Notes under the pieces: model-generated | What the model saw: the letters and a program-made list of their open reading frames with translations, nothing else | Database searches by the model: none | Told to the model about the DNA's origin: nothing | DNA from: Chloroflexota bacterium | GTDB lineage: Bacteria > Chloroflexota > UBA11872 | Reading direction: 5' to 3' | Length of the DNA stretch: 64,000 nucleotides | Assembly: GCA_026706485.1 (NCBI GenBank) | Contig: JAPOYR010000009.1 | Coordinates: 1 to 64,000 of the forward strand | Program-made: the position numbers and the translations under genes | In this document: positions 35,018-37,481 of the stretch, piece after piece | Position numbering within the stretch: the stretch's first letter is position 1 | Layout of the letters: each line of letters starts with the position of its first letter

Positions 35018-36058
35018 GTGACCGTCACCACGTCGCTCAACGCGCCACAGGAGGAAGGACGGATGATCGCCAACGCGCGGGGTCTCAGCACGAGCCAAAG
35101 GGACTTCTTTGACCGCGAAGGGTATCTCGTCATCGATGATGTCTTCGACCCGGCCCGCGATTTCAAGTTGCTCAACGAAGAGCTCGGAAACATTCTCGAC
35201 CGGATCGCTCGCCGCCTGCTTGAGGCCGGCGACATCAAACACTACGACTCTGAGGAGTCCTTCGGGCAGCGTGTGCTACAGGTTCTCCGCGCCCCCGGCG
35301 CCTTTCCCGCCCAAGAATTCGACATCTCTCTCCCACAGAGGAGATCAATTGACTCCGACACCCCGATTTACCTCGGGAACGGCGCCTTTAGCATCCTCAC
35401 ACACCCGATCCTGCTCGACCTTGTCGAGTCGATCATCGGACCCGAGATAACCTCCAGCCCAATCCAACACATCCGCGTCAAAACCCCTCTCTCACTCGCC
35501 AGGACTGACAATCAATGGAACGGCATCCCTGATGAAAACACCCTCACCACGTCGGCCCACCAGGATATCGGCGTGCAATCCGCCGATGCCGACGCCAGCG
35601 AGGTTCTCACCGTCTGGATGCCAATCACCGACGTCTCCGCCGAGATGGGTTGCCTTGGCGTCTGGCCACGGCGCCACCGGGGCGGAATCCTCAATCACTG
35701 CCCCGGCAACGAGGGCCTGGCGATAACTCCACAGGCACTGGATGAAAACGACTTCTTGCCGCTCCCGATGCGCGCCGGTTCGGTCCTCCTGATGACTCGC
35801 TTCACGCCCCACTGCGCTCTTCCCAACCTCAGCGACAGCGTGCGCTGGAGCATGGACCTGCGCTATCAGCCCACTGGCCAGATCAACGGCCGCGCCGACT
35901 TTCCCGACTTCGTCGCCCGCAGCGCTTCCAACCCGGAATCCGCCCTCGCCGACCACAACGCCTGGCGCGACCTCTGGTTTGACGCCCGCGCCCGGCTGGC
36001 CGGCCAGCCCATCCGCAGTTTTAACCGCTGGAGTGCAGACGCCCCCTGGTGCGCCTGA
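35018..36058 (+). CDS. Phytanoyl-CoA dioxygenase family protein
   Basis: This 346-residue Fe(II)/2-oxoglutarate dioxygenase has the HxD motif in TTSAHQDIGVQ, the distal His in FTPHCALPNLSD and a following Arg in VRWSMDLRYQ. It starts at GTG 35018 with GAGGAG at proper distance, or at ATG 35063 with an even better GGAGGAAGG; the shorter form begins right at the domain. It follows oppA on the same strand, separated by a strong hairpin, so it might hydroxylate a compound brought in by the transporter. That link is inference from position. Confidence 0.83.
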   Translation: MTVTTSLNAPQEEGRMIANARGLSTSQRDFFDREGYLVIDDVFDPARDFKLLNEELGNILDRIARRLLEAGDIKHYDSEESFGQRVLQVLRAPGAFPAQEFDISLPQRRSIDSDTPIYLGNGAFSILTHPILLDLVESIIGPEITSSPIQHIRVKTPLSLARTDNQWNGIPDENTLTTSAHQDIGVQSADADASEVLTVWMPITDVSAEMGCLGVWPRRHRGGILNHCPGNEGLAITPQALDENDFLPLPMRAGSVLLMTRFTPHCALPNLSDSVRWSMDLRYQPTGQINGRADFPDFVARSASNPESALADHNAWRDLWFDARARLAGQPIRSFNRWSADAPWCA

Positions 36059-36099
36059 AAGAGTCACGGCCGGAACTAGGAATTGCGTGGGACTTCTAA

Positions 36100-36350
36100 G
36101 AAACCTCTGAACAACAGGGGGGCCTGAGCGCCTAGGCTTGAGCGCGGGTCCGGGATCACGGCCTGGGGGCAGCGCGCTGACTCGATCCGCCGTCTCTATC
36201 CGTTGCGGGGGTGCGATCGTCCCCGCGCGGGGCGCAATGCGCCCGCTTACGCCGGCGCGGCGCGTGCCGCGAGCGGCAGATTGGCGAACCCGAACAACAG
36301 GCACAGCCGGGTCCGGTTCTTGGCCAACCCGCGACTAAATCAGAGGTTTC
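36100..36350. mobile_element. IS5-like deletion remnant (MITE-like)
   Basis: This 251-bp element has 11-bp terminal inverted repeats GAAACCTCTGA and TCAGAGGTTTC, flanked by CTAA and CTAG, consistent with the CTAR-type target duplication of IS5 relatives. On the minus strand, 36247-36339 encodes the end of an IS5-like transposase (RGLAKNRTRLCLLFGFANL, then a stop), so the 5' end of the element was joined to the last ~30 codons by internal deletion. It cannot transpose by itself. Its CTAG flank contains the stop codon of the histidine phosphatase gene. Confidence 0.65.
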
Positions 36351-37046
36351 CTAGGCCTCGAATACGCCCGTGCGCTCCGCGGACGGCAGGTGCGACACCT
36401 CATTCCACCCAGTGACTACGACACCCCACGGCGAACTCTGAAGTGTCGCAATCGCGGTGTTCTCGACGTTGAATCGCCGCATGTGCGTGCGCGGGTCCAG
36501 GCCGAGCACTGCGCAAATCGAAAGCTGTATGGGGCCGCCGTGGGTGAAGACGGCGACGTGGCTGTCGTCGCGCGCCACGATCTCCTCGAGCGCGACGCGG
36601 ACGCGACGATCCACGTCGGCGAGGGACTCACCGTCCTCTGTCTTGGCCGCGAACCATCCGCCACCCTCGAAATCGAACAGTGCGGGATAGCGAGCGCGCG
36701 CCGCATCCGCCGTCATCCCGGCGGCGCCGCCAAAATCGCGCTCGCGCCAGACTTGCTCGAGGGTCGCGTCCACTGCGGACCCAAGGACGAGACGAAGCGT
36801 TTCGGTCGCGCGCGCGAGGTCGCTGGCGATGATCCGCGCACCGTCGAATCGATCCCTTTGCTGAGCCAGGAAGGCGCATTGCCGGCGGCCGCGGTCGGTC
36901 AGCCCGGTATCGGTCTGACTACCGTACATATTCAAGGAATTCGCCTCGGACTCGGCGTGCCGGACGAGCGTGATGCGCAAGACTCGATCTGCTCGCGACT
37001 GAAAACGCGGGCCATCAGCGTACCGAAGCCGACTCCGCCGGCGCAT
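36351..37046 (-). CDS. Histidine phosphatase family protein
   Basis: This protein belongs to the phosphoglycerate-mutase-like histidine phosphatases. The catalytic motif is ITLVRHAESEANS, the substrate-binding segment is ERDFGGAAG, and the second catalytic His is in VAVFTHGGPIQLSI. The start is uncertain: ATG 37046 gives 231 residues with a basic leader of 20 or more residues, while TTG 36980 would start right at the domain. The gene's TAG stop lies in the target site of the adjacent IS5-like remnant, so the native C-terminus may have been longer. The substrate is unknown. Confidence 0.78.
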   Translation of the reverse strand: MRRRSRLRYADGPRFQSRADRVLRITLVRHAESEANSLNMYGSQTDTGLTDRGRRQCAFLAQQRDRFDGARIIASDLARATETLRLVLGSAVDATLEQVWRERDFGGAAGMTADAARARYPALFDFEGGGWFAAKTEDGESLADVDRRVRVALEEIVARDDSHVAVFTHGGPIQLSICAVLGLDPRTHMRRFNVENTAIATLQSSPWGVVVTGWNEVSHLPSAERTGVFEA

Positions 37047-37262
37047 AAGTCGCAGAGGCAAGCTTCGTCGTAGGCGGCCGGGACAGCGCTCATCCGGAAG
37101 TCGTGCTTCGGCTGCCTCGTGCGCGGACATGGCAGCTTCGGCCGCGTCAAGAGTCGCACCTCCGCTCCGGCGTCGGGCACTGACAATCCGGGTTGGTACG
37201 ATCCCATGACCGCTCGGCCCCATCGCATCGAGCGGATCGACGCAGGCGCGGGGACGCAAACC

Positions 37263-37481
37263 ATGCCGCGCGTCGAAACCGACACCCTGACCAAGCAGTT
37301 CGAGCCGCGCGTGCCGCGCCGGCGGCCCTGGGAGTTCCTGCGCCGGCGCGAAGCGCGCAAACGCGCCGCCGAACCGATCATCGCGCTGGACGGCGCGTCG
37401 CTGGCCATTGAGGCGGGCGAGTGCTACGGGCTGCTGGGACCCAATGGCGCCGGCTGTTCCTTGCGCGCTGGCATGGGCTGA
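37263..37481 (+). pseudogene. Beheaded ABC transporter ATPase
   Basis: This encodes only the first ~64 residues of an ABC-2-type ATPase: a normal start (PRVETDTLTKQFEP), a strand IIALDGASLAIEAGECYGLL, and then Walker A broken off as GPNGAG, where the essential Lys-Ser/Thr should follow. Instead CSLRAGMG and a stop follow. The signature, Walker B and all later motifs are absent from the window. The product cannot bind ATP. A deletion at about 37450 is the simplest cause. No permease partner is present. Confidence 0.75.

Follow-up and report, generated by a model that had tools for sequence, protein, structure and literature searches.

The closest described systems are the IS5-family elements of the YTAR-target group (E. 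coli IS5 type) and the MITEs that arise by internal deletion of an IS. Among 24 published IS5 targets, as given in PMC5493358, CTAG occurs 15 times and CTAA and TTAG three times each; YTAR is also the IS5 target in PMC10359306. A further comparison is offered by Haloquadratum: the parts of PMC3119063 covered here describe MITEs, one of which has matching transposase copies that are all broken, and a chromosome that avoids CTAG, and a link between CTAG and stop codons is absent from those parts of the account.

The locus described here lies in a window of 64 000 nucleotides (bases 1–64000 of contig C9) from a Chloroflexota genome of 3.37 Mb (G000). With the IS5 YTAR group it shares a transposase family, which is seen in its relatives (NF033581), inverted ends and a 4 bp YTAR target, but most of the transposase is missing from it and there is a one-base difference between its flanks. 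Like MITEs from internal deletion of an IS, it is short, keeps both ends and has no working transposase; unlike them, it has not been seen amplified and occupies one site only, the orthologous one in each of three genomes. The broken full-length relative in its genome and the depletion of CTAG there resemble what the same parts of PMC3119063 describe for Haloquadratum. The features of the locus are listed with the basis for each.

35018–36058, plus strand: PhyH-type dioxygenase gene, convergent with the phosphatase gene (ORF call, Pfam)
36096–36099, no strand: left target-site flank CTAA (YTAR) (sequence read)
36100–36350, no strand: IS5-family internal-deletion derivative, 251 bp (sequence, genome search, alignment)
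36100–36110, plus strand: terminal inverted repeat GAAACCTCTGA, end downstream of the transposase (sequence, alignment)
36247–36330, minus strand: last 27 codons and stop of an IS5 transposase (by-eye comparison with the 321-residue transposase of G002)
36327–36334, no strand: deletion junction, overlap of the two retained parts (alignment to the 1189 bp G002 copy)
36340–36350, minus strand: terminal inverted repeat, end upstream of the transposase (sequence, alignment)
36351–36354, no strand: right target-site flank CTAG with the phosphatase TAG stop (sequence, ORF, Pfam, flank joining)
36351–37259, minus strand: histidine phosphatase gene (branch 1; PF00300), ORF from the furthest upstream start (ORF call, Pfam)

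Read directly from the window sequence, the 251 bp element (the stub) has perfect terminal inverted repeats (11 of 11 bases) and flanks with a one-base mismatch, which makes the target duplication imperfect. The end sequence GAAACCTCTGA occurs four times in the genome, against zero for the control read backwards: two occurrences are the ends of the stub, and the other two are found at the termini of related IS copies on contigs C7 and C10. The coding remnant on the minus strand reads GLAKNRTRLCLLFGFANLPLAARAAPA followed by a stop, and resembles the C-terminus of the IS5-family transposase of G002. A first reading made from the window alone (the sequence-only reading) had described a 251 bp element with 11 bp inverted ends and CTAA/CTAG flanks, which the sequence and the alignment bear out; it had also seen the last 30 or so codons of a transposase, and here the C-terminal remnant stands while the count comes to 27. 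Rfam gave no matches at gathering scores over 35900–36600.

Full-length relatives with stub-like ends were found in G002, G005 and G018 (1176–1181 bp) and in G000 (1182 bp). The transposase ORF of the G002 copy (321 residues) scores 325 bits against the NCBIfam IS5-family model NF033581, with a cut-off of 140, and also matches Pfam DDE_Tnp_1 and DUF772. The G000 copy has an in-frame stop within its transposase and scores 324 bits to the same model when read from after that stop; in the G005 copy the transposase reading frame is disrupted. The marks of the IS5 family are found: the family model in the transposase of the relatives, terminal inverted repeats in the stub and the 4 bp YTAR target duplication, with flanks of CTAG/CTAG in G002, G005 and G018, CTAG/CTTA in G000 and the imperfect CTAA/CTAG at the stub. 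When the stub is aligned with the 1189 bp G002 copy (flanks counted in both), stub positions 1–239 pair with IS positions 1–238 and stub positions 232–259 with IS positions 1162–1189, at identities of about 80% over 1–238 and 96% over 1162–1189, and about 930 bp have been lost. The NF033581 match of the relatives and this alignment support what the sequence-only reading had called an IS5-like deletion derivative, and the origin of the stub from an IS5-family element by internal deletion is confirmed. The 7 bp sequence CCCGCGA is found at both deletion endpoints of the G002 copy, and the retained parts meet there; the deletion probably arose at this microhomology. No junction repeat of at least 6 bp was found in the decayed full-length copies of G000 and G005. 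At only about 80% identity to the stub, none of the full-length copies seen is its true parent.

G000 also carries a further decayed derivative of this IS (L034, about 2019–2358; G000:C10:345018–345357), which keeps the first transposase codons and one end. The ORFs that flank the full-length IS of G002 (L029, about 150–674 and 1878–2057) resemble parts of one enolase-superfamily gene, a resemblance based on a weak MR_MLE_N match on one side and on comparison by eye on the other, and this IS may interrupt such a gene.

Read on the minus strand, the CTA at 36351–36353 gives the TAG that ends the histidine phosphatase, and the ORF together with its PF00300 match agrees with the earlier placement of this stop within the CTAG flank. 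The sequence-only reading had gone further and held that the protein owes its C-terminus to the insertion, as either fixed or created by it, for which it pointed to the stop codon sitting in the flank and proposed a comparison with homologues. That comparison goes against it: the phosphatase ends at the same residue and codon in all six genomes of the genus examined (G000–G005), three of which (G003, G004 and G005) have other DNA behind the same stop codon, and joining the window flanks without the stub gives the same phosphatase stop for a target of either CTAG or CTAA. A truncated or newly created C-terminus is therefore scarcely credible. Since the YTAR target contains the TAG, the duplication copies the stop, and a stop copied in this way leaves the protein unaltered; from these sequences we infer that the insertion would have left the phosphatase unchanged. 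The four close phosphatase homologues found in named genomes are from metagenome-assembled Chloroflexota records. Window ORF 37119–37481 is a possible broken gene, the end of which is like a truncated start of an ABC ATP-binding domain and carries GPNGAG, which we take to be the ABC ATP-binding motif.

A search of G000 with the stub gave one copy (best 40 of 48 candidates scored). Over 61 genomes matches were obtained in nine, and the whole stub was spanned only in G000, G001 and G002 (best 12 candidates or fewer per genome). The stub is at the orthologous place in both of the latter, as a further shortened 200 bp in G001 and as 250 bp at 91% identity in G002, in surroundings that are 94–96% identical. 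No full deletion form was found at another site among the matches listed in the 60 relatives (best 12 candidates or fewer each). Two sets of cousin elements differ in this respect from the stub. One, of 99 bp, has IS5-like ends and mostly CTAG duplications and is present as 15 near-full copies in G004 (for example L105:1587–1686 and L181:2050–2148); the other, of 130 bp and also with IS5-like ends, has eight copies over three genomes (L267:1977–2106, and in L183, L264, L265, L266, L268, L269 and L270). Both are MITE-like and fit a MITE better than the stub does. The core of the 99 bp element is related to a short repeat present in all six genus genomes, and the core of the 130 bp element has dozens of occurrences without IS5-like ends in the same genomes.

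The stub has the short, non-autonomous form of a MITE, with both ends kept (251 bp, 27 transposase codons), and its perfect ends and its multi-copy cousins with similar ends would suit a working MITE moved in trans by an IS5 transposase, much as the sequence-only reading had suggested for a full IS elsewhere in the genome. The copies speak otherwise: a MITE is expected at several different sites, but the stub was found once in G000 among the best 40 of 48 candidates, and G001 and G002 carry it at the orthologous place. The single full-length relative recovered from G000 by the stub search has the in-frame stop noted above. The suggestion is thus unsupported and mobility of this kind is very improbable; the stub is best read as a one-off relic inherited by descent and not as an active MITE.

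The phosphatase site is occupied in all six genomes of the genus examined. Downstream of the phosphatase are the IS5 stub in G000, G001 and G002, a 130 bp element in G005 (91% identical to the C6 copy of G000) and an IS110-family remnant in G003 and G004 (L046:1104–1442 and L048, about 1149–1496, one in each genome), and no empty phosphatase site was found among the six. The IS110 assignment comes from a PF02371 match in G003 and 97% identity at the G004 end; on the left side of the G004 insert there is a weak rve_3 match, below cut-off. A search of the six genomes for the exact terminus of the IS110 end gave only the two copies at this site. All of the inserts begin within 36096–36099 and end at the same CTAG, and the left flank reads CTAA in G000, G001, G004 and G005, CCAA in G002 and CTGG in G003. 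Three different inserts by lineage within the same boundaries would be expected if the phosphatase stop were a repeatedly used site, at which the IS5 stub, the 130 bp MITE and the IS110 element arrived separately, and we give this slightly less than an even chance. The pairing of a left CTAA and a right CTAG, common to G000, G001, G004 and G005 and in G005 placed around a different element, favours replacement of one old insertion instead, and the trees of the left and right flanks conflict, which favours recombination that may have moved pieces between lineages; that conflict also rules the trees out as a means of dating the insertion.

In G000 and G004 CTAG is present at only about a quarter of the expected frequency. 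In 400 kb of G004 there are 298 CTAGs against 1200 expected from base composition (83 stops, 98 inside genes and 117 intergenic), in 400 kb of G000 there are 271 against 1217 (71 stops, 90 inside genes and 110 intergenic) and in the window there are 47 against 202. Gene stops make up 154 of the 381 CTAGs outside gene interiors in the two genomes combined (40%), with classes taken wholly from a simple automatic gene caller that misses some genes, including genes of the kind rescued by hand below. In the 400 kb samples used for stop contexts (L153–L172 for G004 and L244–L263 for G000), the four-base stop context met most often is CTAG, despite its depletion (89 of 299 stops and 75 of 304, respectively). 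Because CTAG is its own reverse complement, one site can stop two convergent genes at once, as it does at six sites in G004 and four in G000.

This background bears on whether the elements recognise stop codons, or the DNA just behind them, beyond CTAG itself. The automatic caller places eight of the 15 copies of the 99 bp element on gene stops when the left duplication is considered and nine when either is, and the addition by hand of copy C40 brings this to ten; all ten of the genes stopped match Pfam, one of them only as a 100-residue fragment. Against all CTAGs the excess has p values of 0.03 (8/15), 0.009 (9/15) and 0.002 (10/15). Against CTAGs outside gene interiors the p value is about 0.04 for 10/15, a count that includes the hand-placed C40, missed by the automatic caller, against a wholly automatic background, and the automatic counts of 8/15 and 9/15 give 0.25 and 0.12. 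Over all families 13 of 30 related elements are on stops, matching the 40% background (p = 0.85); this total is made up of the 99 bp element (9/15, excluding C40, which is on a stop by hand), the 130 bp element (2/8), a 120 bp element (0/2), full-length elements (1/4, one of the four being from G018, another genus of the family) and the stub (1), which was entered as on a stop by hand where the automatic caller gave intergenic. It counts the phosphatase site twice (the stub and the 130 bp element of G005) and omits a 144 bp element (L113), a suspected 120 bp element in G002 (L273) and many single ends. Among its full-length copies, that of G002 is a doubtful inclusion on a stop (an ORF of 60 residues with a match below the family cut-off), and that of G005 was counted off stops yet abuts the end of a 214-residue ORF with an rve_3 domain. 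Together with the p values of the automatic counts, the agreement of 13/30 with the background makes stop recognition unlikely.

Sites of the 99 bp element that are empty in relatives give a direct view of the duplication. For two copies that lie on stops the corresponding place is cleanly empty in a relative (G001 for the C18 site, G003 for the C16 site), with sequence that matches to either side and just one CTAG, located at the stop, so insertion of the 99 bp element duplicates the stop CTAG and leaves the gene end unchanged. The other genomes have CTAAG (G003) or, after the stop, other DNA without recognisable element ends (G000, G002 and G005) at the C18 site; at the C16 site G000, G002 and G005 read CAAG and the G001 match ends three bases after CTAG. 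The C28 site has a single CTAG in four of five relatives (G000, G001, G003 and G005) and CTAC in G002, but the matches begin just 13 to 34 bases ahead of the junction, so this site falls short of being cleanly empty on both sides.

In the history that we favour, an IS5-family element would have inserted by its own transposase into a YTAR target at the phosphatase stop codon, either in a common ancestor of G000, G001 and G002 or in just one of the three, with later spread by recombination. A deletion between the 7 bp repeats would have removed the 930 or so base pairs and left the two ends and the 27 transposase codons; we infer that insertion preceded deletion, the deletion itself being apparent from the alignment. 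The stop within the target would have been copied by the duplication, and the stub tolerated between the two convergent genes and left to decay in place since. Landing on a stop would need no special mechanism, as CTAG is rare and about 40% of the CTAGs outside gene interiors are stops. We put the probability of this history as a whole (IS5 insertion at the stop, microhomology deletion, unaltered phosphatase, decay and no special mechanism) at roughly 0.87. Against it, the flanks of the stub are not identical (CTAA versus CTAG), and the same pair around the different element of G005 is hard to explain by independent insertions; the microhomology, moreover, is visible in the G002 copy only. The finding of no empty phosphatase site among the six genomes and the roughly 80% identity of the full-length copies to the stub count against it as well.

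The stub itself is ordinary and of little weight, and the stop-codon niche is mildly interesting, as a modest general point. The idea of stop duplication was not found stated in the titles and abstract openings of the papers listed in searches of the open-licence PMC literature. We suggest, tentatively and at somewhat less than even odds, that in genomes with CTAG depleted and TAG frequent as a stop, stops may act as a safe harbour for CTAG-targeting IS5-type elements, reusable by different elements across lineages. If this is true, an insertion on a CTAG stop would be silent for the protein, since the duplication copies the stop. Stop duplication would then indicate, in a simple and countable way, where CTAG-targeting elements can persist, and it would explain elements that directly abut the ends of genes, with no need for gene fusion, truncation or a transposase that recognises stops.
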